Positions 14,718 through 28,347 of a DNA stretch of 32,679 nt are shown here, piece after piece; positions within the stretch are counted from its first letter, which is position 1, and every line of letters begins with the position of its first letter. This DNA comes from Planctomycetota bacterium. GTDB taxonomy: Bacteria > Planctomycetota > Planctomycetia > Pirellulales > Lacipirellulaceae. The position numbers and the translations under genes were made by a program. Location: assembly GCA_013152515.1 (NCBI GenBank), contig JAADGD010000318.1:1-32679 (forward strand), in the 5' to 3' direction. Below the pieces are notes generated by a model. It worked only from the letters and a program-made list of their open reading frames with translations, was not told the DNA's origin and searched no databases.

Positions 14718-15356
14718 ATGAATGCACTGAGGAAACATCGATTCGGCCATGCCATTGTTGTCACCCTGGCAGGTCTTCTGTTCAGTGGGCTGGGCATGTT
14801 TGCATTGAGTCAAATTACGTTGGGGGATCCAGTTGCATTGGGGGCAAAGGAGAAATCGGAAAAGAGAGAAGCTACGCCACCCAAAGACCAAAAGTATGTC
14901 GGAAAAAACACTTGCGCCGCATGCCATTATTCTAAATACCGCACTTGGAAGCATGAAAAACATGCTAAGGGTTTCGATATCCTGCCCAAGAAATATCGTA
15001 CGGATCCCAAATGCCTCGTCTGCCACACAACCGGCTACGGTGAACCGACAGGATACAAGGATGTCTCGACACCCCAACTGGCTGGTATCACATGCGAAAC
15101 ATGCCATGGGCCGGGAAGCGAACATGTGAAATTGGCCCAGAAGTTGTTTCTGGCGGTCGAGGTTGAGGTGACCTTGGAGGCGGAGAAGAAAATCCGCGAT
15201 TCGATTGAATTGTTTCTGGAGAAAGACACGACCGCTGCCCGGGAAGCCCAAAAAAAGGCTCGCAACTCGATCTTCCGGATTAAGCCAGGCAATGCATGCG
15301 TCAAATGTCATACTACGAAGGCGCACCAAGCGCACCTGGAATATGACAAAGAATAA
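14718..15356 (+). CDS. Tetraheme cytochrome c (c554-like)
   Basis: 212 residues from ATG 14718, preceded by GGTGGG. An N-terminal hydrophobic segment (about 11-30) serves as an uncleaved anchor or signal. Four CXXCH heme sites are visible: CAACH (C66), CLVCH (C99), CETCH (C126) and CVKCH (C194). The pattern 'YVGKNTCAACH...WKHEKHAKGFD' with a later 'TCETCHGPGSEH' matches the cytochrome c554/multiheme family, in which the heme near 'GPGSEH' is typical. A charged helical segment (about 145-185) separates hemes 3 and 4. First gene of the nitrate-reductase cluster, 27 bases before the second cytochrome. It could pass electrons between a quinol oxidoreductase and NapB; that role is inferred from context. 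Confidence 0.87.
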   Translation: MNALRKHRFGHAIVVTLAGLLFSGLGMFALSQITLGDPVALGAKEKSEKREATPPKDQKYVGKNTCAACHYSKYRTWKHEKHAKGFDILPKKYRTDPKCLVCHTTGYGEPTGYKDVSTPQLAGITCETCHGPGSEHVKLAQKLFLAVEVEVTLEAEKKIRDSIELFLEKDTTAAREAQKKARNSIFRIKPGNACVKCHTTKAHQAHLEYDKE

Positions 15357-15382
15357 GCTGTCCCAGCTAAAAGGCATATCGA

Positions 15383-16138
15383 ATGATTGGCAGCGTCGCA
15401 AAAGTGCATTGGGTATTGCTACTGGCTGTTGGTGTGCTGGCGGCTGCTGCGGGCACGGGTTGGGCCTGGAGAAATGCGTCCGAAGGCAATTCGACTGCTA
15501 GTTCGGACGATAAAGTAGGGCGACTCTCCGAGTCGTTTAGTGATCGAAAAAAACGGCTTGGAGAGTCGTCCTACTCTGGTCTTGAGAGAAAGCTTAGGGG
15601 CCAACGCGACAAATTCACCATAACGATCCGCCAGCCTGTTGGGCCTCCACGGGTCGAATTGAGGGCACCTAATTCTTTGCAGAGGGGCAAGCCGATCACC
15701 GTGGCGTGTTCGACCTGTCATGCGTCGCGTCCGGCGAACTTCGCCAACCGTACGCCTGCGGATCTCGACGAGTTTCACCAGGACCTCACCTTTGCACATG
15801 GTAACGTGACCTGCCTTTCTTGCCACAATCCGGACAATTACGACACCCTGCATTTGGCCGACGGCAGCTCGGTGGAGTACTCCGACGTGATGACCCTTTG
15901 TGCCCAATGTCACGGGCCGCAAACTCGCGATTATCGGCATGGTGCTCATGGTGGAATGATCGGGTATTGGGATCTGTCGCGCGGTCCGAGGACTCGAAAC
16001 AATTGCGTCGACTGCCACGACCCTCACGCGCCCAGTTTCCCAGCCATGAAGCCAACTTTCAAACCGCGGGATCGTTTTTTGAACAGCACGATTGATGCTA
16101 AAAAGGGCCATTCGGAGGTACACCCCCATGAGCGATAG
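15383..16138 (+). CDS. Membrane-anchored tetraheme cytochrome c
   Basis: 251 residues. An N-terminal hydrophobic helix (about 8-29) anchors or exports the protein. Residues about 44-65 (KVGRLSESFSDRKKRLGESSYS) are encoded by an inverted-repeat element inserted in frame, forming a charged linker. The heme domain carries CSTCH (C109), CLSCH (C144), CAQCH (C173) and CVDCH (C208), with extra His residues (HGAHGGMIGYWD, DPHAPSFP) suited to axial ligation. I recognise a small tetraheme cytochrome but cannot assign a precise family. Its end overlaps the start of the ferredoxin gene by 11 bases, so translation is coupled. Likely partner of the NrfCD-like module or of NapB. Confidence 0.84.
   Translation: MIGSVAKVHWVLLLAVGVLAAAAGTGWAWRNASEGNSTASSDDKVGRLSESFSDRKKRLGESSYSGLERKLRGQRDKFTITIRQPVGPPRVELRAPNSLQRGKPITVACSTCHASRPANFANRTPADLDEFHQDLTFAHGNVTCLSCHNPDNYDTLHLADGSSVEYSDVMTLCAQCHGPQTRDYRHGAHGGMIGYWDLSRGPRTRNNCVDCHDPHAPSFPAMKPTFKPRDRFLNSTIDAKKGHSEVHPHER
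15515..15574. repeat. Inverted-repeat element inside the second tetraheme cytochrome gene
   Basis: Arms 15515-15538 and 15551-15574 are reverse complements with three mismatches in 24 (GTAGG.CGACTCTCC.AG.CGTTT type), with a 12-base loop. The element lies within the reading frame and adds about 20 codons without disrupting it. Confidence 0.75.
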
Positions 16139-17108
16139 CCAACGGGCCAACGGCTCCGATCCATCCTCGGCCAGCAACGCAGAGCCCCTACTGCCGATAC
16201 TGGGCCAGAGTGGTTCGACTCGTCGTACGATGATGAAGGGAGCGGGACTGACGCTAGGCTTGGCGGCGTTTGGCAAGGCGATTTCGCCGCTGACGGCCAT
16301 TCCCGAAAATGTTTCGGTCGCCGAGTTTCTGCAGCAGCACTACAAAGAACTCTCGAGCGACGACAAAAAAACGATTCTTGCACGGTTGGAGGCCGAGGCG
16401 AAAGAAAACTACGGCGCGGAGGTTTCGATCAGCGATCATCGCCCCATTCCCGGCGTCAAGTTTGGCTACGCCATCAATCTGAGCAAATGCAACGGCAACG
16501 GAAAATGTGTCGAAGCTTGCCACACAGAAAACAACCACGACCGGACTACACAAGAGTCGTACATTCGAGTCCTAGAAATGGACAAGGGCTCGATGGACCT
16601 GGAAACCGCCAACACGACTTACACCCATACGGTGCCTCAAGACGACAAGTTCTACATGCCCGTCCAATGCCAGCAGTGCGACAATCCGCCTTGCGTGACC
16701 GTCTGCCCGGTCGAGGCCACATGGAAAGAAGAAGACGGCATCGTTGTGGTCGATTACAACTGGTGTATTGGTTGTCGCTACTGCGAGGCAGCTTGCCCGT
16801 ACCATGCCCGTCGGTTCAATTGGGAAGCGCCGACAGTACCGACCGACGACATCAACCCCAACCAAAGCTACCTCTCCAACCGAATCCGTCCTCAAGGGGT
16901 CGTAGAGAAATGCCACTACTGCCTGCACCGGACGCGCGAAGGTCGCCTGCCTGCCTGCCTGGAAGCCTGCCCTACGGGGGCACGCGTGTTTGGAGACCTG
17001 AACGATCCCGAATCAGAGATCGTCTGGATTCTTAAAAATAAACGCGTGTTTGTGCTCAAAGAAGATCTCGGCACGCAACCTAGTTTTTTTTACTTTTTCG
17101 ATAGCTAA
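16128..17108 (+). CDS. Tat-type 4Fe-4S ferredoxin subunit (NrfC/DsrO-like)
   Basis: 326 residues from ATG 16128, eight bases after a strong GGAGGT. A Tat-like signal (S-T-R32-R33-T-M-M-K then GAGLTLGLAAFG) implies export of the folded protein. Residues about 118-285 form a ferredoxin fold with four cluster motifs: C121..C127..C131, C181-C184-C189-C193, C213-C216-C219-C223 and C262-C265-C277-C281. This is the arrangement of NrfC, PsrB, TtrB and DsrO subunits that relay electrons between an NrfD-type membrane protein and a periplasmic partner. The first motif reads CNGNGKCVEAC, with Asn124 where families usually have Cys, so 15 rather than 16 cysteines are present. It is followed by the NrfD-like gene. 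Confidence 0.9.
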   Translation: MSDSQRANGSDPSSASNAEPLLPILGQSGSTRRTMMKGAGLTLGLAAFGKAISPLTAIPENVSVAEFLQQHYKELSSDDKKTILARLEAEAKENYGAEVSISDHRPIPGVKFGYAINLSKCNGNGKCVEACHTENNHDRTTQESYIRVLEMDKGSMDLETANTTYTHTVPQDDKFYMPVQCQQCDNPPCVTVCPVEATWKEEDGIVVVDYNWCIGCRYCEAACPYHARRFNWEAPTVPTDDINPNQSYLSNRIRPQGVVEKCHYCLHRTREGRLPACLEACPTGARVFGDLNDPESEIVWILKNKRVFVLKEDLGTQPSFFYFFDS

Positions 17109-17112
17109 CAAG

Positions 17113-17140
17113 GGGTCGAGAGTCTAGGGTCGAGAGTCTA
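17113..17140. repeat. Perfect tandem 14-bp repeat
   Basis: Two adjacent copies of GGGTCGAGAGTCTA in the 107-base gap between the ferredoxin and NrfD-like genes. No promoter or terminator was recognised around it. Confidence 0.7.
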
Positions 17141-17215
17141 GAGCCAGAAAGAGCCCCAAACTGACGATTTGTCGTTAGAGTATTCCTTAAGAACAAATTC
17201 TGAAATAAATATCCC

Positions 17216-18499
17216 GTGTCATCCGTTACCTTACCCAAATCATCCGATACTGCTCGAATCGCCGCGCCTCAGGTCCGCAACTACCCTCGCTTTTTGCTGT
17301 GGTTGTTGGGAGTTGCTACCGATGGTGGCGTTTGGTTTTACACTTGGATGTTTGTGTTGACCGCGATATTTTTGGTGGGCGCCAACGCCTGGGCAATCCA
17401 AGTTGCCGAGGGAATGATCGTCACGCACATGACCGATCATGTCAGTTGGGGGCTTTACATCGCGAATTTTACTTTTGCCGTTGGAGTTGCCGCCGGTGGC
17501 GTCATGATGGTCATCCCGGCGTACCTTTACCACAACAAAAAAATGCACGATGTCGTTATCGTTGGTGAGTTGCTCGCCATCGCAGCGATTGTTATGTGTC
17601 TGATGTTTGTTACTGCCGACCTGGGGCGCCCCGATCGGTTTTGGCATATGATTCCCGGGCTGGGGCGATTCAATTTCCCGCTCTCGATGCTCACGTGGGA
17701 TGTCGTGGTTCTCAACGGTTACCTTCTGATAAATCTACATATCTGTGGCTACATGTTGTACATGCGGTACTTAGGGCAGCGCCCGAACCCGCGGTGGTAT
17801 GTGCCCTTTGTGATGGTCTCGGTGTTCTGGGCGATTTCGATTCACACCGTGACAGCCTTTCTCTATTGCGGGCTGGGGGGACGCCCTTTTTGGAACTCGG
17901 CCTTGCTGGCACCACGGTTTTTGGCCAGCGCTTTCGTCTCAGGGCCCGCGTTCATCATTGTTACGCTACTGATCCTCAAACGAATGCTGGGCGAACGCAT
18001 TTCCGACGAGCCGATTCGCCTGCTCGTGAACATTGTACGCGTCACGATGGTCGTGAACCTAATCATGATTGTGTCGGAAGTTTTTACCGAGTTCTACACC
18101 GGTGGCAGCCATACCGCCTCTGCCCGTTATCTGTTTATTGGTCTCCATGGGCACTATGGACTGGTACCCTGGATTTGGACTGCCATGGTTGCCAACGTGG
18201 CCGCCGCCGTTTTGTTTCTGTCGCCTCTGGTGTTCCGCCGGACGAGCGTGTTGGTTGTGGCTTGCGGCCTGGCCTTTTTAGCTGCATGGATCGAAAAAGG
18301 AATGGGCCTGATTGTGCCGGGGTTCGTTCCCAGCACCTTACATGAAATTGTCGAATACCAACCTAGCTTGTTGGAATGGAAGGTCACCGCGAGTGTCTGG
18401 GCTTTTGGGCTCATGGTCTATACGATCGGGCTCAAGGCTGCGATAGGCGTTATCGCGCAAAGCCCCCAACTGCCGGACGAGGGCCCAACCCATGATTAG
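17216..18499 (+). CDS. NrfD/PsrC-family membrane quinol oxidoreductase subunit
   Basis: 427 residues from GTG 17216; no in-frame ATG occurs before residue 45, so the GTG (or another upstream non-ATG) start is needed to keep the first helix. About ten transmembrane helices are visible. Family signatures include SWGLYIANFTFAVGVAAGGVMM near residues 78-99, ADLGRPDRFWHM and FPLSMLTWDVVVLNGYL, which match NrfD/PsrC/DsrP proteins, where the early helices form the quinone site. Together with the upstream ferredoxin it would form a two-subunit quinol dehydrogenase delivering electrons to periplasmic carriers. It takes the place that NapC or NapGH holds in better-known nap clusters. Its end overlaps napD by eight bases. 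Confidence 0.9.
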   Translation: MSSVTLPKSSDTARIAAPQVRNYPRFLLWLLGVATDGGVWFYTWMFVLTAIFLVGANAWAIQVAEGMIVTHMTDHVSWGLYIANFTFAVGVAAGGVMMVIPAYLYHNKKMHDVVIVGELLAIAAIVMCLMFVTADLGRPDRFWHMIPGLGRFNFPLSMLTWDVVVLNGYLLINLHICGYMLYMRYLGQRPNPRWYVPFVMVSVFWAISIHTVTAFLYCGLGGRPFWNSALLAPRFLASAFVSGPAFIIVTLLILKRMLGERISDEPIRLLVNIVRVTMVVNLIMIVSEVFTEFYTGGSHTASARYLFIGLHGHYGLVPWIWTAMVANVAAAVLFLSPLVFRRTSVLVVACGLAFLAAWIEKGMGLIVPGFVPSTLHEIVEYQPSLLEWKVTASVWAFGLMVYTIGLKAAIGVIAQSPQLPDEGPTHD

Positions 18500-18764
18500 C
18501 GGACTTGTTGCCACGCTGAATACCGATGTCGAGCTGGCCCAATCGGCCCTGCAAGCGATTGGACTCCACCCCGCTTTGGAATCTGGTCCGCAAAAGGGTT
18601 GTCGACTTCCGCTGGTGCTTGAAACGAGAACCCCAGCCGAGTCGCACGATCTGACCAACTGGCTGGGCGAGCTACTCGGGGTCGAACACGTGGACGTTGT
18701 GTATGTCGATTTGGGCGACGACTCGGGATCGTTCGAGAAATTAGTATCGCACTTGAATAAATGA
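18492..18764 (+). CDS. napD: NapD-type chaperone of nitrate reductase
   Basis: 90 residues, overlapping the NrfD-like gene by eight bases and napA by four. The sequence starts MISGLVATLN, has GCRLPLVLETRTPAESHDLTNWLGEL in the middle and ends in GVEHVDVVYVDLGDDS. This matches NapD in length and layout: an N-terminal strand, then a strand with the 'lvlE' motif, a helix, and the 'GV..v.vVY' strand near the end. NapD binds the Tat signal of NapA and guards cofactor loading before export. Position directly before napA supports this strongly. Sequence identity to proteobacterial NapD appears low, so the symbol rests on both motif pattern and synteny. Confidence 0.82.
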   Translation: MISGLVATLNTDVELAQSALQAIGLHPALESGPQKGCRLPLVLETRTPAESHDLTNWLGELLGVEHVDVVYVDLGDDSGSFEKLVSHLNK

Positions 18765-21181
18765 CCATGGACCAAGATCGCCGCCACTTTATCCGTTCTG
18801 CCGCGATGAGCGCCGCCACAGCGATTGCCTCGGGATCGGGCCCGTTTTCCTTGCCAATCGTTCACGCGACCGAAAGTTCGCCGATCTCGTGGAAGAAAGC
18901 CCCTTGTCGGTTTTGCGGGACCGGATGCCATGTGCAGGTGGGCGTGGAAAATGGCCGGGTCGTAGCAATCGCCGGCGATCAAGACGCCGAAGTCAACAAG
19001 GGGCTACTCTGCGTCAAGGGTTACCACGTCGGCTCGGTGCTGTACGGCAAAGATCGCCTCACTCGACCGCTGCTTCGCCGAGGCGACCGCTACGAAGCGA
19101 TTTCATGGGACCAAGCACTCGACGTGATCGCATCGCGGATCGAAGCGGCCCCCGAGCGGTTTGCCCTGTATGGCTCGGGCCAATGGACCATTCCCGAGGG
19201 CTACGCCGCACAAAAATTCATGAAAGGTGGTCTGTCGAATAACCACATCGACCCCAACGCGCGGCTCTGCATGGCCTCGGCCGTGACCGGGTTCCTGGCC
19301 ACGTACGGTGTCGACGAGCCGGCGGGCTGCTTCGACGATCTCGACCATTGCGACGTGCTGATCCTATGGGGCAACAATCCGGCGGAGATGCACCCGGTGT
19401 TGTTTTCGCGAGTGGTCGATCGACGTTCGCGAGGCGCGTCCGTCGAGATGATCGACATCAGCACGCGCCGCACGCGCAGCACCGAGCAGTGCCAACACTA
19501 TCTCGAAATGAAACCGAACGGCGACGTTGCTATCGCCAACGGCATTGCGCACCTGCTGCTCAAAAATGGGACCTACGATCGCGCGTTTGTCGAGTCGCAT
19601 TGCAATTTCAAGGCACCGAATCCCGACAAACCCAATCTGCATGGCAAATCAATCCGCTTCGACGAATATCGACAACTGCTCGAGCCCTACACGCCGGAAT
19701 ATGTTGAAAAGCTGTCGGGAGTGCCGGCAGAGCAGATTCGCATGTTGGGAGATCGATTCGGCAACCGCGATTTGAAGATCACCTCGCTCTGGTGCATGGG
19801 AATGAATCAGCACACGATGGGGACGGCGATCAACACCATGGTCCACGGCCTCCACCTGTTGAGCGGGCATTTTGGACGCCCTGGCGACGCGCCAACCAGC
19901 TTGACCGGACAGCCTTCGGCATGCGGCACAGTACGGGAAGTTGGCACGCTTGCCCACGCCCTACCGGGAGGCCGGCTAGTGGCCAAGCCGGAGCACCGCC
20001 AACAGACCGAAGCGTTTTGGAATCTTCCCGAGGGTCGCGTGAACCCCAAACCGGGTTACCACACGGTGAAAATGTGGGAACAGTTCTGCACGCCCGCAGA
20101 TCAAGGTGGGGACATCGACACGATCTGGGTCCAGGTGACCAACCCGGGCCAGACGTTGCCGAATCTGCACAAGCTGTTCAATGCCAAACAAGGGCTCAAG
20201 GAAAAGTTCCTGATTGTCTCGGATGTCTACCCTACGGCCACGACGCAACTGGCCGATTTGATTTTGCCTTCCGCCATGTGGGTGGAAAAGAACGGCGTCT
20301 TCGGCAACTCGGAACGCCGCACGCAACAGTGGTTCAAAATGGTCGAGCCTCCCGGCGAGGCACGCGACGACCTTTGGCAAACCTTGGCCGTGGCCCATCG
20401 ATTATTCGACCGAGGCTTTGCCGGTATGCGAGACAAGGAGGGGCGTTTCCTGTTCGAAGTGGTCGACGACTCGGGCACGCCAGTCCCCGCGTGGCAATGG
20501 GAACACTACTACGACGTCAACGTCGACAAACATCTGTTCGAGGAATATCGGCCATTCACTCGCCTCAAGCACAAGGACTTGGCACCGTACGATGAGTATG
20601 TTCGGACGCGTGGAATGCGATGGCCGGTAGTTGAACAGTCCGACGGAACATGGGCCGAGACCCGGTTTCGTTTTGTGGAAGGTTACGATCCGTACGTGGA
20701 AGAGGGGTCGGAAATTCAATTTTATCATTCGACGACCCAAGACCACCGTGCGCAGCTATGGTTCCATCCCTACGAGCCGCCGGCCGAAGTACCCGACGTA
20801 GCCTATCCTCTGATGATGACAACCGGTCGTGTGTTGGAACATTGGCACTCCGGCTCGATGACCCGTCGCATTCCACAACTGAGCCAGGCGATGCCCTCGG
20901 CCTACGTAGAAATGAACCCTGACGACGCTCGCGAGCGCGGTATCCATAGTGGCGACCAGGTCGTGATTCGCTCACGGCGAGGCGAGCTAAAACTGGTCGC
21001 GTGGGTCAATGGCCGTGGCCGACCACCGCGAGGCACGGTGTTCGTCCCGTTTTTCGATGAGACCTTGCTCATCAATGAGCTCACGCTCGACGCGTTAGAT
21101 CCCTTTTCCAAGCAACCCGATTATAAAAAGAGTGCAGTGGAAGTGACAAAAATCGTAACCGTTCACGACAAAAAAGAATAG
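18761..21181 (+). CDS. napA: Periplasmic nitrate reductase catalytic subunit
   Basis: 806 residues; ATG 18761 overlaps the napD stop, and ATG 18767 is a possible alternative. A Tat signal (RRHFIRSAAMSAATAIASG) leads the protein. A [4Fe-4S] site follows: C49, C52, C56 and C84 in CRFCGTGCHVQVGVENGRV and LLCVKGY. Residues NARLCMASAVTGF place the Mo-ligating cysteine at C170. NapA signatures follow: WGNNPAEMHPVLFSRV, DISTRRTRSTEQCQHYLEM, SLTGQPSACGTVREVGTLAH and PKPGYHTVKMWEQF. The C-terminal MGD-binding domain is complete (TTGRVLEHWHSGSMTRRIPQL). The length fits NapA. It reduces nitrate to nitrite in the periplasm with bis-MGD molybdenum. Assimilatory or other substrates are less likely because of the Tat signal, the NapD neighbour and the NapB-like gene. 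Confidence 0.94.
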   Translation: MTMDQDRRHFIRSAAMSAATAIASGSGPFSLPIVHATESSPISWKKAPCRFCGTGCHVQVGVENGRVVAIAGDQDAEVNKGLLCVKGYHVGSVLYGKDRLTRPLLRRGDRYEAISWDQALDVIASRIEAAPERFALYGSGQWTIPEGYAAQKFMKGGLSNNHIDPNARLCMASAVTGFLATYGVDEPAGCFDDLDHCDVLILWGNNPAEMHPVLFSRVVDRRSRGASVEMIDISTRRTRSTEQCQHYLEMKPNGDVAIANGIAHLLLKNGTYDRAFVESHCNFKAPNPDKPNLHGKSIRFDEYRQLLEPYTPEYVEKLSGVPAEQIRMLGDRFGNRDLKITSLWCMGMNQHTMGTAINTMVHGLHLLSGHFGRPGDAPTSLTGQPSACGTVREVGTLAHALPGGRLVAKPEHRQQTEAFWNLPEGRVNPKPGYHTVKMWEQFCTPADQGGDIDTIWVQVTNPGQTLPNLHKLFNAKQGLKEKFLIVSDVYPTATTQLADLILPSAMWVEKNGVFGNSERRTQQWFKMVEPPGEARDDLWQTLAVAHRLFDRGFAGMRDKEGRFLFEVVDDSGTPVPAWQWEHYYDVNVDKHLFEEYRPFTRLKHKDLAPYDEYVRTRGMRWPVVEQSDGTWAETRFRFVEGYDPYVEEGSEIQFYHSTTQDHRAQLWFHPYEPPAEVPDVAYPLMMTTGRVLEHWHSGSMTRRIPQLSQAMPSAYVEMNPDDARERGIHSGDQVVIRSRRGELKLVAWVNGRGRPPRGTVFVPFFDETLLINELTLDALDPFSKQPDYKKSAVEVTKIVTVHDKKE

Positions 21182-21327
21182 AACGCGGATGAACGCGGAT
21201 CCAACAGATTTCCGCAGATAAAAACAGGGGTGTTTATTCGCTTTTGCAACTCACACACTTATAAACGGGGCAACCCTTTTTTTCTTGGATCAGCGACTAT
21301 CCGCCTAATCTGCGTTTATCCGCGTTC
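21181..21327. repeat. Paired inverted repeat, arms 20 bases
   Basis: Left arm 21181-21200 (GAACGCGGATGAACGCGGAT) and right arm 21308-21327 are reverse complements with two mismatches in 20, separated by 107 bases. The left arm begins on the last base of the napA stop codon. This GAACGCGGAT-type sequence resembles short repeats dispersed in several bacterial genomes. The remaining gap to 21457 holds no gene. Confidence 0.7.
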
Positions 21328-21457
21328 TATTCGTAAACGTTCACGATAAAGAATGAAAAACAACCACGAATCCTGTGAACGGTTACCAAAAATCTAACTT
21401 GGACCCTTGATGAAACCCCTCGATGAAACCCTTCAATGAAACTCGAAGCAAATTTCC

Positions 21458-22396
21458 ATGCAACTCTCCTCTCACCATGACGATCCTGTCCAAAAAGGTG
21501 CCAAGCCGCCGCCGTCCGCACCAGGCGATTTTACGCAACGGCAGACGGTGCTTATCGCGATTGGGCTGATCGGCGTTGCTACGACCGGTTATTTTTTGGG
21601 GCTTACCTCGCCCATGATGGCCGGCGACGAGCGGCCCTCCGATGCGGCCGAGGCAGTGCAAACAGAAGAACACCCTCCTGCGTCCTCGACGGTCATCCCC
21701 GCGACAGCCTATGCCGAGATGCCTTTTGTCCAGACTCGATCCCGTCGGTTACGAGCCACTCGGTTGAACATGCTTCGTCAAACTCCCTACGATGTCAATG
21801 TGAAAATCGATGTGAATGAGGCGGAGAAACTTGCCTCGCTCGCAGATCGAGAAACACGCCGGGCTTTCGATGGAGCACCTCCCACCGTTCCCCATCCGAT
21901 TGACCAACTCGATTCGACGGCTTGCATGGCATGTCACGGCGAAGGCTTGCGGAGCGGAACCTTTCGAGCGAGCAAGATGCCGCACCCCTATTACTCCAGT
22001 TGCACGCAATGTCATGTAGAACAAAATGCCAAATTCGCACCCGCATCGGCGACCTTTGAAAATTCGTTTACCGGGGTCGCCGCGCCCACCAGTGGAGGGC
22101 GTGCTTCTCAAGGTGCTACGCCGACGCTCCCGTATACCGATTGGATGCGCAAGGCCATTCAGAATAGGGACCCCGCTACCGATTGGGTACCGCCGGTGTT
22201 TCCTCATACCACCTGGATGCGCAACGACTGCCTGAGTTGCCACGGACGGACCGCTGCGCCTGGGATGGAATCAACACACCCCTGGCAAGCGAATTGCTTG
22301 CGATGTCATGGCAAATCACCTCAACTGAACCCAACCGAACTGCCCGACGTTCCCAAATTCTTGTCCTCCCCTGCCATACTGGATAGCGATGAGTAA
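21458..22396 (+). CDS. Tetraheme NapB-like cytochrome c
   Basis: 312 residues from ATG 21458; no clear ribosome binding site. An N-terminal transmembrane helix (about 30-49) suggests a membrane anchor. The region after residue 130 reads FDGAPPTVPHPID...CMACH (C156)...MPHPYYSSCTQCHVEQNAKFAP, with CTQCH at C182. This fits the diheme NapB fold (APPviPH, first CXXCH, 'H', then 'C..CHv.q'). A second half repeats the pattern: TDWVPPVFPHTTWMRNDCLSCH (C258)...STHPWQANCLRCH (C280). The protein thus looks like two fused NapB-like diheme units. NapB passes electrons to NapA in the periplasm. A tetraheme membrane-bound form would make a longer relay. It follows napA after a repeat-containing gap. Confidence 0.83.
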   Translation: MQLSSHHDDPVQKGAKPPPSAPGDFTQRQTVLIAIGLIGVATTGYFLGLTSPMMAGDERPSDAAEAVQTEEHPPASSTVIPATAYAEMPFVQTRSRRLRATRLNMLRQTPYDVNVKIDVNEAEKLASLADRETRRAFDGAPPTVPHPIDQLDSTACMACHGEGLRSGTFRASKMPHPYYSSCTQCHVEQNAKFAPASATFENSFTGVAAPTSGGRASQGATPTLPYTDWMRKAIQNRDPATDWVPPVFPHTTWMRNDCLSCHGRTAAPGMESTHPWQANCLRCHGKSPQLNPTELPDVPKFLSSPAILDSDE

Positions 22397-22841
22397 ACAG
22401 CAGCCCCAAATGTCGCGTCGCGATTGGTTTCGACTTCGCTTGCCGGTCACGCCGTCTGAAAAGCAACAACGACTAGGGGCCGAACCGCCGACTGGCTTGC
22501 AATCGATCGATGATCCGATCAATCATGGTGGCTTCGATTTGTCGTCGTTGCCGCCGATGCACGAGGCAACGCTTGACGCCCAAGAAGTCGCCGCCCTGTT
22601 TGCCGATCTCGAGCAACATGCCACAGCGGTGCAATTCGTAGCACGCAGTAACACAGGCAACGCGTCTGATCGATTCAGCCATGTGGACATAAAAGGAGCC
22701 CGCGATCAGCTACTCGGCGGCAACGTACGTAAATTACAGATCCGCTACCAATGGCAGAACGCCCACTGGATCGATACGCTTGAACGACGCCCCGATGGCT
22801 TTCGGCTAGTGCGCATCCAGCACGCCAAGGTTTCAAAGTAG
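22389..22841 (+). CDS. Hypothetical protein of the nap cluster
   Basis: 150 residues, start ATG 22389 overlapping the NapB-like stop by eight bases, so probably coupled. The N-terminus contains SRRDWFRLR, reminiscent of a twin-arginine motif, but no hydrophobic stretch follows (LPVTPSEKQQRLGAEPP), so export by this route is doubtful. NapF-type proteins also begin with such a motif, but no cysteine cluster is present here. The middle reads FDLSSLPPMHEATLDAQEVAALFADLEQHA, and the end is basic and beta-rich (VRKLQIRYQWQNAHWIDTLERRPDGFRLVRIQ). No family is recognised. The position implies a role in assembling or tuning the nitrate reductase. Confidence 0.68.
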   Translation: MSKQQPQMSRRDWFRLRLPVTPSEKQQRLGAEPPTGLQSIDDPINHGGFDLSSLPPMHEATLDAQEVAALFADLEQHATAVQFVARSNTGNASDRFSHVDIKGARDQLLGGNVRKLQIRYQWQNAHWIDTLERRPDGFRLVRIQHAKVSK

Positions 22842-23555
22842 CAGGCACACGAAGTTTGTCTACTACTTTCTGTTTCTGTGCCACATTAAGAACACGCCTT
22901 AGCTGTGCATATTCGCACATACGCGCACCAACGGGCACACTTTTAGTGGCTTTAACAGCCCATGAAGTAACAAGAGATGGAGATAAATCATATTTGGACA
23001 TTTTTGTCCTTTATTCTGAAATAATTATTTGCTTAGCATCATGACGTATGCTACTCTTAGAACCATCTGAGGGGACGTTGTGTTCTTGCAAAAACTTCCC
23101 CCACATCAGTGAGCCCGCATCCAGAAAGCTAATGGATCTATTATCTTCGACAGCTAGCTCTTAGCGTCTTGTTCCAGCATTGTTTTGATGTTCAATGCTG
23201 AACAGGTATTCGGAGTGGAACGGGCGTTCTTCGTTTCATCTCACGAACGTTCTGGTCACGAAAGTTCTGGAGATGCTCTGTCGGCATCTTTTCGGGTGTG
23301 TCCTCGAATGAGGAATTCTAGCGAATAGGAACTCAACCGAGTCCACCTCTTGTGTGATAAGGTATGGGATTTGCTCCTTGGTCACGCGTAACCCTTTCAG
23401 TTCAATAGTCACGCGCTAATGGATCACGACAATTGCTATTTTTTCTCGGAGGAACTTCGAGAGAGGCCCAGTAGTGGGTGGGTCCGTGAGTGGCCTATCC
23501 GTTTTTCACGCATCAAAAATACATGATGCACACGTTTATTAGTGGAGGGTTGATT
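22842..23555 (+). other. Intergenic region with hairpin and tandem repeat, no gene seen
   Basis: About 710 bases between the nap cluster and the PEP-CTERM cytochrome. Short open frames here have no coding character. Two structures stand out. A hairpin spans 23170-23204, with stem CAGCATTG/CAATGCTG, a 10-base loop and an outer TGTT/AACA extension across one bulged base. A tandem pair of 15-base units spans 23241-23270 (TCACGAACGTTCTGG, one mismatch in the second). Both lie upstream of the cytochrome start and could be 5' regulatory elements. No promoter could be placed with confidence. Confidence 0.5.
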
Positions 23556-24263
23556 ATGAAAACTAGATCAATAGTGGCTCCAATGTTGGCATTGGGAGTG
23601 TTGTTTGCCTTTGAGAATGTGGCCCAGGCGTTTCCCGGTTCGGCGGTGGGCACCGGAAACAGTTGCGCTTCGTGTCACAGTTCCGATGGCGGATCGAATC
23701 CCGTGCAACCCACGAATGATCCAGCATCGGATCGTGTGGATGCCCTGGAAATTCTCGGGGAAGCCCTTTTAGACCTGGGAGATGGCAATCGCAATGATGG
23801 AAAGGACCGGGGGTCGCTTCAGGTCTTTACCGTGCAACCCGGTGGTACCGTCGACCTGACGATGCAAGTCCTTGATGGGGCCGACAAATATGCTGTGCAA
23901 TTAAAGCGTTTAGAAAAAGCGGGTGTTTTGGGGCCTGCCGATACCGATTTCTTGACCGGTTTTGTTCCGGACGTCAGTTGGTTTGCACAGGGGGTTCCGA
24001 ATACGTATTACACGAGTGTCCCGTTTTCTACCAGCTGGGCCGTCGTTTCACCCAGCGGACCCGATCCTTACACTTTTAGCCTAACCGTTGATCCGGGTAC
24101 GCCTCTGAACGTATACGATCTGGAGTTTGCCGTCGCCGGCCACCAGAATGTAAGGTTCTACGACGATCTGCACTTCTACTTGAACGTAGTTCCCGAACCG
24201 AACACGTTGGCACTGCTGGCTGTGGCCGGAATGGGAATCTGCTACTTGAGGAGACGACCTTAG
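23556..24263 (+). CDS. PEP-CTERM monoheme cytochrome-like protein
   Basis: 235 residues from ATG 23556, which follows GGAGGG by seven bases. The frame is open to 23490 but the upstream segment lacks such a site. The signal peptide ends near AQA/FPGS. One heme motif CASCH (C37, C40, H41) lies in GTGNSCASCHSSDGGS just after it. A beta-rich domain follows (LQVFTVQPGGTVDLTMQVLDG... SGPDPYTFSLTVD), comparable to exported proteins in which a GxGxCxxCH segment precedes a Reeler or choice-of-anchor-type domain. The C-terminus VPEPNTLALLAVAGMGICYLRRRP is a complete PEP-CTERM signal with an Arg tail. It is therefore exported and probably exosortase processed. It is convergent with the porin gene. Confidence 0.85.
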   Translation: MKTRSIVAPMLALGVLFAFENVAQAFPGSAVGTGNSCASCHSSDGGSNPVQPTNDPASDRVDALEILGEALLDLGDGNRNDGKDRGSLQVFTVQPGGTVDLTMQVLDGADKYAVQLKRLEKAGVLGPADTDFLTGFVPDVSWFAQGVPNTYYTSVPFSTSWAVVSPSGPDPYTFSLTVDPGTPLNVYDLEFAVAGHQNVRFYDDLHFYLNVVPEPNTLALLAVAGMGICYLRRRP

Positions 24264-24435: not shown

Positions 24436-26742
24436 CTAATAAACGGCCTGGAGGCCTGCCAGAAGCATGTTCGCGGTGCCGCTGTTGTACGACTTCGACT
24501 TATCTTCGTAGTCGAATAGTTGGTAACGAAAGTAAAAATCCATTCCTTGGTTTATTTGGTAGTCGACGCCCGCCGTCCAACGGTTAATCGTAATCAGGAC
24601 ATCGGAGTATTGTGGCAAATCAGGCCAAAGGGCGGGTGAGCCTAATCGGTTGCTGCCGCGAACATACTCATAGCCACCCGTCAGGGTCAGGCGATCAGTC
24701 CAGGCATAAGTGGACCCCAAGTTAACCGTGTCACTCCGGCCAGCGTAATTCCATTGGGAAGTTATTGGATCGCTCAATCCGCCAAGCGTAATGTCCTGGT
24801 CGATCCAGTTGGAAAAGAAGGCCATGCCGCCAGAAAAAGTCCACCGTGGTTCGGGTGCGTACCAAGCCGTCACCACGATTGGATAATCATCCTCCTGGAA
24901 AGTACTGATCCCGGATCGGTTCGAACGCTTAGTAACCCCCAATGTGGCGCTCAGCAGAAAATTGTCAGCCGGAGTCCAGGTGCTGCCGAGTTCGAAGTTG
25001 TGCTCCTGGGTAGGTAGCAGTGTGTTGGTAGTGCCGTTTTTCGCGATTCCAAACAGAGGGTTCTCGATAAAATCAAGCCGGTAACGGACGTGCGACTCGA
25101 AAGCAGGCGCCCACTTCATCGAGCCCCGAAGGTGCATCCGATTGGTCGTGGTTAACGACTGGTTTACCGAGACCGTATCCTCTGGAAAAACGGCGTTTTC
25201 ACGTCCTAATTGGCGGAATTCGTAACCGCCCGACAACAACAGGCGGCGCCATGGATAATTGTCGACGCGAGGACGCCAGCGACCTTTGAGTCCTGCAATG
25301 GTTTGGTCGTAATTGATCGGAGCACGCATGTCCGCTAGGCTTTCTTCGGCCAGCAGTAGGGATGGCAATTGGCCGGTTTGCACGTTTTTCTTGGCATAGC
25401 CTGTCAGAGAGATTCCGTGATGCAACCGAGCAGTGGTGCGTAGGTCGAATCCCGAAATACGGCGGTTTGTGTTGCGGAATTTATTTCTGGTGTTTCCTGT
25501 GTAATACGTGGAATAGAGATCCCATTGGGGGCCCAGTAATAGGTTGGCTTTCAATCGATCGATCTGGGTAAAATTCTCTGGAACGACCGCGTAAGGCAGA
25601 TCCCCGTTAAAGCCGAAATTATCGTAGGCGCGGGTCGTCAATTGATCATTCTGATCAAAAGCGCGCATGGTCCTTTCGTATTCAACGATGGCGGAGCCGA
25701 TTCTTGCCTCAATGGCCGGTTTTAGCTCCGTGGTGATCCAGTCGATTCGCTGCGACTGCGTCTGCGTATGGCAATTGGAACAAGAGAAAGATACCGGATT
25801 GCCATTGATATCCCTGGCGTTTGGGTCACTGAAACCATGGGCGACAGCATTCACCTGTCGTTCGCCTTTTTTTCGCATTCCCCAGACCCCAAGTCGCCAT
25901 CGGATATTGTCTGTTATATTCCCCTTGAATTTGGCATTCAGTTCCTGCACTCGAATGGCGTAATCGTCATCCACATTGAGATCTTCCTTCGTGACCCACT
26001 CGCCAGAAGCAAAAGGACCTCCAGGCGTCAGTTGTTGAGAGTCAACCATGCCGCGCAAGGGGTCGTGATCGAGCCGACGCAAAAAACGCTCGTACTGAAT
26101 GTTTGCAGACATGCGAGGTCCATAGTATCGCAAAGCGGTGTTGGTTGCTTCCGAGTCGAGACCTGTCGCAGAAAAGTCGACTGTTTCGTTGCCGTTCGTG
26201 TAGAGTCCATCGGCGTCCCAGAACTCGGAAGACAGCAGGCTCTGATACTCACCCGTCTTGACTTCGGCTCCACGATTGCTGGCAGACCACCAACCCCCAC
26301 GAAAAACGAGACCGTAAGGTGCCGTAAAATGCCTGCGATAACGATAGAAATCGGTTGGGTCGGGTGGCTTAGGATGTGAATCTGCCGGTTCGACAAAAAG
26401 GGCGACTTGTTCCACCTGCTTAGCCAATTCTGGGACGAACGGCTCGATGTTATTCAGGCCATTTCCCCACGCCTCGATCGACTCGACCGTATCGATTTCC
26501 ATACCCACAATTCTAATGGATGAAGGCAGAACTTGATCTTGAGGCACTGGAGGGAGACTGGCGAACCAATCTGGCATAATGAATAATAACGTGGTGGAAT
26601 CTAAGCTGCCGTTATCCTGTTTGAACGCTTCTGCCTGTCCGAGCATTTCTGGTGATCTCGAACCATCCGATGGTTTTGCATCGGCAGCAGGTGTCAGCAG
26701 CGCGCACAGAAGCGCAGAACCTATCGCAAGCTTGTGAATCAT
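24436..26742 (-). CDS. Heme-bearing MtrB/PioB-like outer-membrane porin
   Basis: 768 residues from the ATG at 26742 (MIHKLAIGSALLCALLTPAADA, a good signal peptide), preceded by a G-rich ribosome-binding region. The mature protein is a long series of amphipathic strands with turns typical of outer-membrane beta-barrels (RWRLGVWGMRKKGERQ, WDLYSTYYTG, LTLTGGYEYVRGSN, MDFYFRYQLFDYEDK). It ends with an aromatic residue (LQAVY). A CXXCH (CSNCH, C321-H325) lies mid-protein in NGNPVSFSCSNCHTQTQSQRIDWITTELKP. It is encoded directly downstream of a 14-heme lipoprotein, the order seen in porin-cytochrome electron conduits. No conventional porin or TonB signature was recognised. The MtrB-like call rests on length, barrel pattern and partner gene. 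Confidence 0.75.
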   Translation of the reverse strand: MIHKLAIGSALLCALLTPAADAKPSDGSRSPEMLGQAEAFKQDNGSLDSTTLLFIMPDWFASLPPVPQDQVLPSSIRIVGMEIDTVESIEAWGNGLNNIEPFVPELAKQVEQVALFVEPADSHPKPPDPTDFYRYRRHFTAPYGLVFRGGWWSASNRGAEVKTGEYQSLLSSEFWDADGLYTNGNETVDFSATGLDSEATNTALRYYGPRMSANIQYERFLRRLDHDPLRGMVDSQQLTPGGPFASGEWVTKEDLNVDDDYAIRVQELNAKFKGNITDNIRWRLGVWGMRKKGERQVNAVAHGFSDPNARDINGNPVSFSCSNCHTQTQSQRIDWITTELKPAIEARIGSAIVEYERTMRAFDQNDQLTTRAYDNFGFNGDLPYAVVPENFTQIDRLKANLLLGPQWDLYSTYYTGNTRNKFRNTNRRISGFDLRTTARLHHGISLTGYAKKNVQTGQLPSLLLAEESLADMRAPINYDQTIAGLKGRWRPRVDNYPWRRLLLSGGYEFRQLGRENAVFPEDTVSVNQSLTTTNRMHLRGSMKWAPAFESHVRYRLDFIENPLFGIAKNGTTNTLLPTQEHNFELGSTWTPADNFLLSATLGVTKRSNRSGISTFQEDDYPIVVTAWYAPEPRWTFSGGMAFFSNWIDQDITLGGLSDPITSQWNYAGRSDTVNLGSTYAWTDRLTLTGGYEYVRGSNRLGSPALWPDLPQYSDVLITINRWTAGVDYQINQGMDFYFRYQLFDYEDKSKSYNSGTANMLLAGLQAVY

Positions 26743-26772
26743 CCCCCCCCCCTTTCCCCTGTAGCACAGTAC

Positions 26773-26792
26773 ATGACAATAGTTTTTGTCAT
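26773..26792. promoter_or_regulatory. Dyad between the 14-heme and porin genes
   Basis: Perfect inverted repeat ATGACAA-N6-TTGTCAT, 31 bases upstream of the porin ATG in the 96-base gap between the two genes. It is too short and lacks a T-tract to be a convincing terminator; a regulator-binding site or RNA structure is possible. Confidence 0.4.
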
Positions 26793-26838
26793 AGTGCAAC
26801 TCTGTTGACCTTTTCGTTATAGGTCTTCTACCAACAGT

Positions 26839-28347
26839 TTATCTCAATAGCGCCCCCGCTCGATGCTGTGAAGGCAAATCACTGCCGTGAATTTGATCGT
26901 GGCATTGAGTGCAGTCGCTATAAAACGCCGACCGCAAGCCTGGATTGCCATCAATGTCAGCTACTCCCAATCCAAAATGGTCGCCTGGCGGCACTCGGTG
27001 ACCCGTGTGGCATCGCAAGCATAAAAAGGCCGGTGGCTGATGCAGTAGATTGTTGGCTACCGTACCATGTGGATTATGGCAGTGCGCACAGTCTTCCGTA
27101 ACTGGTGGATGCTCATACACAAACGGGCCTTGCTTCTCAGCGTGGCATTTGTAGCAAACCATATTGACGGTAGGCTCATTGAGGTTGCCTTCCGCCTGGC
27201 CGTGGGCATCGTGGCAATCAGAGCAGGTGACTTTTCCCTCTCTAATGGGATGGTGGGATGGTAGTCCGACCAGTCCTCTGATTTTAGGGTGGCATTTGTA
27301 GCACGCTTCCGGCTCGTTGACGGACATGGGCAGCCGCTTAGGACGCTGAATTGAAGTGTGACTAATGTTCACCACGCGCTGGACGCTTGTGTTCGGGTGC
27401 GGATTGTGGCAGTCCGTGCATGCCACGCCGGCTTGGTCGTGAGTTGAGGAGTGCCATGCAGCGTTCGGCGATGTCCCTTCATGGCACTTCAAACACAAAT
27501 CTTTCCTCGACGACGGTAGGACATTGCCGTGGGAATTGTGGCATGTCGTACAATTCAGACTGTTGGGGCCATGAATCTGATGAGGATGGGCAACTTCCTC
27601 CAATTCACTTTTGTCTCCATGGCATTGATAGCACACCTGGGGAGCTACAGCTGCTAAATGGTTCGACGTGCCACGCAACGAAGGCAAGGCCTGTCTCTTT
27701 GCTAGCTCTTTATCTTGATCAGCCTGCATACTCACCAACTGTACTCTCCAGTCTGCGGGAAATCCTCCCTGAGCAATTGGTATCGGAGTTAACGTCGGTG
27801 TGTTGGCTGGGACATTGTAATGATTATGGTGGCAATCGGTGCAGGAGACCCCTTGGTGCGCATGAACCGACCGACGCCATGTATTGCCCGGAGCGCAAGA
27901 GTTGTCTTCATGGCAACTGGCGCAAACTTCAGACCGCCCAGCAGGTTGCATGGTCTTAAAATCCAGGATCAACCCCGGCTCCTTACCACGGGCGTCCAGG
28001 TGCAGGCTTGCCGGACCGTGACATGATTCACAGCTTTGTTTTCGGTGGACATTCTGTGAGAAGGCCTTGCCATGCGCGTTATGGCACACAGCGCAAAGGG
28101 CATCGTTATTCACATACTCTGCACCGGCTATGGTGGGCACAGCCACCTGGATTCTCGGCAAGGCCGCCTCTTGAAACGAGACATTGCTGACGGGCCAACC
28201 TGAATCAACACGAGGCTCGTCATCGCGAGGAGTGTCTTTCGTCGATTTACAGGAAACCACAAACATAAGACAGGCTAAACCTAATACTGCAAACCAGGAC
28301 GTAAGAGAAGATCGTCGACACTTTGCATTCTGGAGTTCTTTGTGCAT
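26839..28347 (-). CDS. 14-heme MtrA/DmsE-like cytochrome c lipoprotein
   Basis: 502 residues from the ATG at 28347. The frame extends to 28434 but would place about 29 extra residues before the signal. The N-terminus has RR, a hydrophobic stretch and the lipobox VVSC (Cys33), so a lipoprotein is predicted. Fourteen CXXCH sites run from residue 85 to about 483: CAVCH, CESCH, CASCH, CTDCH, CYQCH, CTTCH, CLKCH, CTDCH, CYKCH, CSDCH, CYKCH, CAHCH, CLRCH and CTQCH. Many are followed by NxHG or DxHG (CTTCHNSHG, CSDCHDAHG, CAHCHNPHG), the repeat style of MtrA/DmsE-type cytochromes. Those usually carry ten hemes, so this is an extended form. It forms an operon with the downstream heme-bearing porin and probably threads or docks at it. 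Confidence 0.88.
   Translation of the reverse strand: MHKELQNAKCRRSSLTSWFAVLGLACLMFVVSCKSTKDTPRDDEPRVDSGWPVSNVSFQEAALPRIQVAVPTIAGAEYVNNDALCAVCHNAHGKAFSQNVHRKQSCESCHGPASLHLDARGKEPGLILDFKTMQPAGRSEVCASCHEDNSCAPGNTWRRSVHAHQGVSCTDCHHNHYNVPANTPTLTPIPIAQGGFPADWRVQLVSMQADQDKELAKRQALPSLRGTSNHLAAVAPQVCYQCHGDKSELEEVAHPHQIHGPNSLNCTTCHNSHGNVLPSSRKDLCLKCHEGTSPNAAWHSSTHDQAGVACTDCHNPHPNTSVQRVVNISHTSIQRPKRLPMSVNEPEACYKCHPKIRGLVGLPSHHPIREGKVTCSDCHDAHGQAEGNLNEPTVNMVCYKCHAEKQGPFVYEHPPVTEDCAHCHNPHGTVANNLLHQPPAFLCLRCHTGHRVPPGDHFGLGVADIDGNPGLRSAFYSDCTQCHDQIHGSDLPSQHRAGALLR

Follow-up and report, generated by a model that had tools for sequence, protein, structure and literature searches.

For electrons, the textbook way through the outer membrane is an MtrA-type wire, whose length is commonly taken to be ten hemes. 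The ten hemes of MtrA span 80 angstroms; its N-terminus is on the periplasmic side, with heme 1 about 20 angstroms inside the periplasm, and the tetraheme cytochrome STC superposes on MtrA hemes 2-5 and again on hemes 6-9 (PMC7198977). Two-gene porin-cytochrome conduits (Pcc) with a 12- or 14-heme cytochrome and without a surface cytochrome were described in 2014 for Anaeromyxobacter and for the planctomycete Kuenenia (PMC4245776). Here, we consider a pair of genes, coding for a 14-heme cytochrome and a beta-barrel, on a planctomycete DNA stretch of 32,679 nucleotides (contig JAADGD010000318.1 of assembly GCA_013152515.1), the whole of which we call the window. The window is a contig of a 3.7 Mb metagenome-assembled genome (MAG) that is 80% complete and whose named close relatives are Planctomycetota and Pirellulaceae MAGs. 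We consider it highly likely that the two proteins form an electron conduit of the MtrAB type through the outer membrane, with a lengthened cytochrome.

The cytochrome and barrel gene pair

Both genes were located on the minus strand (Table 1) in the arrangement given by a preliminary description of this DNA, i.e., a lipobox-bearing protein with 14 CXXCH motifs followed by a signal-bearing barrel. Both are read in the same direction, and about 97 bases separate the cytochrome stop from the preferred barrel ATG; the latter lies behind a G-rich Shine-Dalgarno-like stretch and was preferred over the TTG of the mechanically called open reading frame. All 14 motifs of the cytochrome stand in one frame of about 500 residues, which is far beyond chance, and the next richest frames of the window hold four. 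In orthologues L035-L046, the lipobox-like motif lies about 55-65 residues ahead of heme 1, and lipid would presumably be attached to the cytochrome through it. Lipidation as a hallmark of the 14-heme form was rejected, as lipobox-like motifs also occur in ten-heme planctomycete proteins.

The cytochrome scored 247.3 bits with the DmsE/MtrA model TIGR03508, above the curated cut-off of 192.2. This model describes a decaheme protein; ten of the 14 hemes of the window cytochrome align with those of ten-heme relatives. MtrA was its sole strong relative by sequence in the PDB (E 8e-39), while the model of the Geobacter protein GSU2203 (NF041028) gave 294.6 bits, under its cut-off of 325. Outside the CXXCH motifs, 16 histidines are invariant in seven orthologues, enough for bis-His ligation of 14 hemes.

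For the barrel, the predicted structure was confident over the barrel part, with 26 strands by count and a long low-confidence stretch ahead of it. MtrB (6r2q_B) was the closest fold, with a Foldseek value of 2.3e-20 and a VIA Z of 23.7 at a root mean square deviation of 3.9 over 554 of 649 residues, the next VIA entry having a Z of 16.3. The barrel is thus predicted to have the MtrB fold. Its score with the GSU2204 model (NF041027) was 158.6 bits, under the cut-off of 350. In a profile comparison, planctomycete barrels matched the barrels of ten-heme relatives with a probability of 96.4% and an E of 1.4e-9.

The two genes also travel together. The same adjacent pair was found in about 18 planctomycete loci, nearly all of them 14-heme, and cytochrome and barrel are adjacent and co-directional in the orthologous loci with both genes complete. 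Heme count and spacing are kept in the complete Pirellulales-type orthologues, except for two with one or five extra hemes. The earlier suggestion that the pair forms a conduit draws its support from the TIGR03508 score, the MtrA match and the MtrB fold.

Several observations weigh against the proposed conduit. The barrel had no match to PF11854 or TIGR03509 at E 0.01, so that the MtrA/DmsE and MtrB/PioB profile searches suggested in the preliminary description came out positive for the cytochrome and negative for the barrel. A planctomycete-only barrel profile found no PDB sequence, and the alignment given to the structure predictor for the barrel contained MtrB-type relatives. Finally, the predicted structure of the cytochrome was poor, with a predicted local distance difference test (pLDDT) score of 54. 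This may be expected, because hemes are absent from the prediction, and MtrA was still the best fold match (Foldseek 2.5e-6, VIA Z 7.1), but the model is too weak for a length measurement.

The barrel itself holds one CXXCH (CSNCH), which the preliminary description did not mention. In the loop concerned, which is probably extracellular, the second Cys-His is invariant and another Cys stands 2-18 residues before it in all 13 barrels compared; in nine of them, the two Cys are 11-18 residues apart. The CSNCH of the window barrel possibly binds a covalent heme. Having considered such a fifteenth heme, we preferred a loop-closing disulfide, which fits the loop better because the Cys spacing varies.

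Origin of the additional hemes

Hemes 1, 2 and 7-14 of the window cytochrome pair with hemes 1-10 of nine ten-heme proteins from Acidobacteriota, Pseudomonadota and one uncultured bacterium, which leaves four hemes over. Within a repeat, an alignment places an insertion arbitrarily, and we therefore looked for internal repeats in the protein itself. Hemes 3-6 lie in a block that resembles that of hemes 7-10 with a z of 7.5 over shuffles that kept the heme residues in place, and 0 of 500 shuffles scored as high. Similarity of heme contexts was raised at offset four in all of the extended proteins tested, including 18-, 19- and 22-heme forms; offset two was also raised in many of them and, in the window protein, lay slightly above offset four. 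Judging from these sequence comparisons, the four extra hemes appear to have arisen by tandem duplication of a four-heme block.

As the tandem repeat sits in the periplasmic half of the protein, it is probably the periplasmic reach of the wire that has grown. With MtrA as the scale, at 80 angstroms for ten hemes, the gain would be about 35 angstroms. The preliminary description had called the 14-heme form extended relative to partners with about ten hemes and had supposed that it could span a thicker or different envelope. The extension holds, taking the form of a four-heme block. A 14-heme two-gene system had been reported before (PMC4245776). A thicker membrane is not favoured, because the 26 strands of MtrB are kept and the duplicated block lies in the N-terminal half, i.e., the half that faces the periplasm in MtrA.

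We infer the following arrangement of the complex. The barrel would form an insulating sheath within the outer membrane, through which the C-terminal hemes (approximately 7-14, the counterpart of MtrA hemes 3-10) would run. The N-terminal hemes would project into the periplasm, with the lipid anchor tethering the cytochrome, and the block duplication (hemes 3-6 and 7-10) would make its periplasmic part longer by four hemes. Electrons might then pass between the inner end of the wire and both periplasmic tetraheme cytochromes and a quinone-side module, for which the Fe-S/NrfD proteins encoded in the neighbouring cluster are possible candidates.

A heme-count ladder in Planctomycetota

A cytochrome match at E 1e-15 or better was found in 20 of the 392 sampled genomes of the phylum. 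The complete homologues with at least ten hemes from those genomes carry 10, 14, 18 or 22 hemes, with 15 and 19 as the exceptions. The 15- and 19-heme proteins (L047 and G022, respectively) are sisters with one added heme near the C-terminus common to both. The 22-heme candidate from G225 has an in-frame TAG after 18 hemes, and shorter forms with 7-8 hemes are also present, some of them at contig ends.

In a tree built on the last eight hemes, the extended proteins fell into two supported groups: clade (i), which includes the window protein, and clade (ii), from other planctomycete families. Support for clade (ii) was 100/100; the label of clade (i) denotes one side of the 100/100 branch separating it from clade (ii), and its own branch had 95/97 with the ten-heme rows counted. 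Clade (i) proteins have a single conserved CxxCHG, the heme-2 signature, and repeat the heme-6 signature CxxCHxxHG at heme 10. In clade (ii), it is CxxCHG that stands every four hemes, at hemes 2 and 6 and up to hemes 2, 6, 10 and 14 in the 22-heme forms. The two clades therefore duplicated different four-heme registers, an argument for independent extension. It is these differing signatures, and not the tree, that speak for two duplications; in the tree, a single group of extended forms was not rejected (94/91 support).

The four-heme ladder and the two registers are seen in the sequences. It is tempting to suppose that planctomycetes tune their outer-membrane wire in four-heme steps (10, 14, 18, 22), by at least two extensions in different registers, on the periplasmic side and reaching toward the inner membrane, with some clade (ii) barrels bearing 4 or 8 hemes. 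We put this forward tentatively and find it rather unlikely to hold as a whole; within it, a link of wire length to periplasm width and independent origins of the extensions are hypothetical. In the literature that we searched, the coverage of which was partial, we met with no account of such a four-heme ladder for the MtrA family. Such a four-heme-step family offers natural wires of graded length, built on the same geometry that superposes twice inside MtrA. Graded wires could be compared for rate and reach, and they could serve to test whether wire length follows the width of the periplasm.

Two further observations concern heme-rich relatives. In five clade (ii) loci (Table 1), the barrel gene beside the MtrA-like gene starts with 4 or 8 CXXCH, so that cytochrome and barrel look fused. 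Their MtrA-like partners have 18 or 22 hemes (at least 14 in L146). Four of the five barrels gave weak GSU2204 or MtrB model matches in the barrel part, and the L146 barrel gave none in the same scan. A porin-like 10-heme protein with hemes in loops has been reported for Geobacter sp. M18 (PMC4245776). Outside this set, the MtrA-related frames L064, L069 and L085, from a Nitrospira, a gammaproteobacterial and an unclassified MAG, hold 32, 21 and 26 CXXCH, respectively, each with a large heme-motif-free frame nearby downstream.

Neighbouring genes and the direction of electron flow

A cluster with NapA/NapB-like genes and a DsrO/DsrP-like pair spans positions 14718-22841 of the window, and its NapB-like protein has four CXXCH; NapC was not found among the window proteins scanned. 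The gene at 23490-24263, which lies between this cluster and the conduit genes, codes for a PEP-CTERM protein containing one CXXCH, and a one-CXXCH homologue has the same placement in the relative G012. Locus L037 has, directly upstream of its conduit pair, genes orthologous to those for the Fe-S protein (76% identity) and the NrfD protein (60%), and four other genomes have an orthologue of the c554-type protein no more than 10 kb from the pair. Cytochrome maturation genes, tetraheme carriers or quinone-linked modules were found near the pair in several relatives. Such associations speak for a chain that links the quinone pool to the conduit, and they do not fix its direction.

Table 1. Positions of the conduit genes, their parts and neighbouring or related genes; coordinates refer to the window unless a locus is named.
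Feature	Position	Strand	Basis
14-heme MtrA/DmsE-family putative lipoprotein gene	26839..28347	-	ATG start 28347; 14 CXXCH; TIGR03508; MtrA best PDB relative
Lipobox-like VVSC, end of signal peptide	28249..28260	-	Sequence; similar motif in orthologues L035-L046
Hemes 1-2, counterpart of MtrA-type hemes 1-2	27943..28095	-	Alignment with ten-heme relatives
Four-heme unit, hemes 3-6, first tandem-repeat copy	27514..27942	-	Local alignment with next unit
Four-heme unit, hemes 7-10, second copy	27175..27513	-	Repeat test; pairs with hemes 3-6 of ten-heme relatives
Hemes 11-14, counterpart of MtrA-type hemes 7-10	26842..27174	-	PDB sequence search and ten-heme alignment
MtrB-like predicted outer-membrane barrel gene	24436..26742	-	ATG start 26742; predicted 26 strands; MtrB best fold; adjoins cytochrome in orthologous loci
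CSNCH in barrel loop, between strands 7 and 8 by strand count, probably extracellular	25768..25782	-	Sequence and predicted structure
c554-type tetraheme cytochrome, possible periplasmic carrier	14718..15356	+	PF13435; orthologues near pair elsewhere
Second tetraheme cytochrome of neighbouring cluster	15383..16138	+	4 CXXCH; PF09699, PF14522
DsrO-like Fe-S protein and DsrP/NrfD-like membrane protein, candidate quinone-side module	16092..18499	+	Family models; orthologues in L037
NapA-like nitrate reductase and tetraheme NapB-like protein	18761..22396	+	NF010055 885 bits, under cut-off 904; PF03892 above cut-off
Clade (ii) heme-bearing barrel genes	L148:3143-5932, L147:4176-6854, L159:107-2470, L146:1871-4264, L149:3249-5624		

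Electrons might flow mainly outward, taken from quinol by modules of the CbcL-like, cytochrome b or NrfD type and passed to a mineral, humic matter or a partner; we judge this to be just short of an even chance. It agrees with the CbcL-like fused c/b proteins that adjoin the pair in G024, with the cytochrome b and 9-heme protein that follow it in G001, and with the restriction of CbcL-type matches to 4 of 59 relatives, all four having the conduit. However, only G010 and G024 have b/c fusions among these four, the genes for cytochrome b and the 9-heme protein being separate in G001 and the match in G042 covering the c-type part only. Likewise, the window's own MAG, 80% complete, has no CbcL-type match, and Mtr-type wires can run either way (PMC10734462). 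A CbcL-like or NrfD module as the exclusive partner of the conduit, first hinted at by a set of 11 genomes where every genome with the conduit seemed to have one of the two, was overturned by the 59-genome search and was dropped because NrfD occurred in nine genomes, six of them lacking the conduit. Separately, L096:7522-16440 of G010 holds four large multiheme genes with 9, 9, 12 and 11 hemes, of which two are CbcL-like, having a cytochrome b domain, and one has a NapC/NirT domain.

Electrons might instead move mainly inward through the same conduit, in the manner of MtoAB/PioAB-type uptake: Fe(II), a mineral or a partner cell would donate them from outside, and the periplasm and the nitrate reductase encoded nearby would receive them. 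This is plausible, and we would place it somewhat below even. It fits the presence of NapA, the NapB-like protein and the Fe-S/NrfD module beside the pair, the retention of the end of the nitrate cluster next to the pair in G012, the nearest relative, and the lack of a surface cytochrome gene nearby, as in Mto/Pio clusters (PMC4245776). Nevertheless, the nitrate cluster lies on the opposite strand, other pair-bearing genomes are without close NapA and NrfD homologues, and the six relatives with NrfD and no conduit also speak against it. Whichever the direction, the pair suggests that Pirellulales-type planctomycetes exchange electrons with the outside of the cell, and this may be tied to nitrate reduction.

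That there is no transmembrane wire, the cytochrome being a periplasmic electron store or carrier and the barrel an ordinary transport porin encoded alongside by chance, might appeal to the barrel's missed MtrB/PioB models and to the charge that extra hemes could store, yet it is very improbable given the pairing kept across orthologous loci, MtrB as the clear best fold, and the match of 23 of the 24 barrels of the wider alignment to NF041027, described as an MtrB/PioB-family protein (PMC13188914).

Comparison with known systems

Shewanella MtrAB (6r2q) and the MtoAB/PioAB systems share with the window pair an MtrA/DmsE-family cytochrome, a 26-strand barrel partner and adjacent genes; in Mto and Pio, as in the window, a surface cytochrome gene is not found beside the conduit genes. 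The window pair differs from all three in having 14 hemes instead of 10, by way of the four-heme tandem repeat, and a lipobox-like motif, while its barrel is set apart by falling outside the MtrB/PioB sequence models, by the low-confidence stretch ahead of the barrel and by the loop Cys pair. From MtrCAB, it differs in that there is no OmcA/MtrC-family decaheme protein in the window or, by TIGR03507, in the 80%-complete MAG, where the MtrC/MtrF domain model gave sub-threshold matches only. In this respect, the preliminary description was right that no outer-surface multiheme gene adjoins the pair: there is none in the window.

By sequence, the nearest named families for both window proteins are those of Geobacter GSU2203 and GSU2204. 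GSU2203 is a decaheme family, and both window proteins stay under the cut-offs of NF041028 and NF041027. The GSU2204 family is named for a CXXCH, and the window barrel has one too.

PCC3 of iron oxidizers resembles the window pair in that a porin is combined with a periplasmic multiheme cytochrome that is enlarged and contains internal repeats (PMC5566968). Unlike the window pair, PCC3 includes a large extracellular cytochrome and a conserved inner-membrane protein and has a median of 21 periplasmic hemes (PMC5566968). No PCC3-type large extracellular multiheme gene stands beside the pair in the window, and the PCC3 inner-membrane protein was not profile-searched. Closer in plan are the Pcc of Kuenenia and Anaeromyxobacter, which, like the window pair, consist of a porin and a 12-14-heme periplasmic cytochrome without a surface cytochrome. 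Compared by description only, their cytochromes have 338-344 residues (PMC4245776) versus about 500 in the window. Overall, a two-gene conduit with a 12-14-heme cytochrome is already known, and the window pair adds a variant to that kind.

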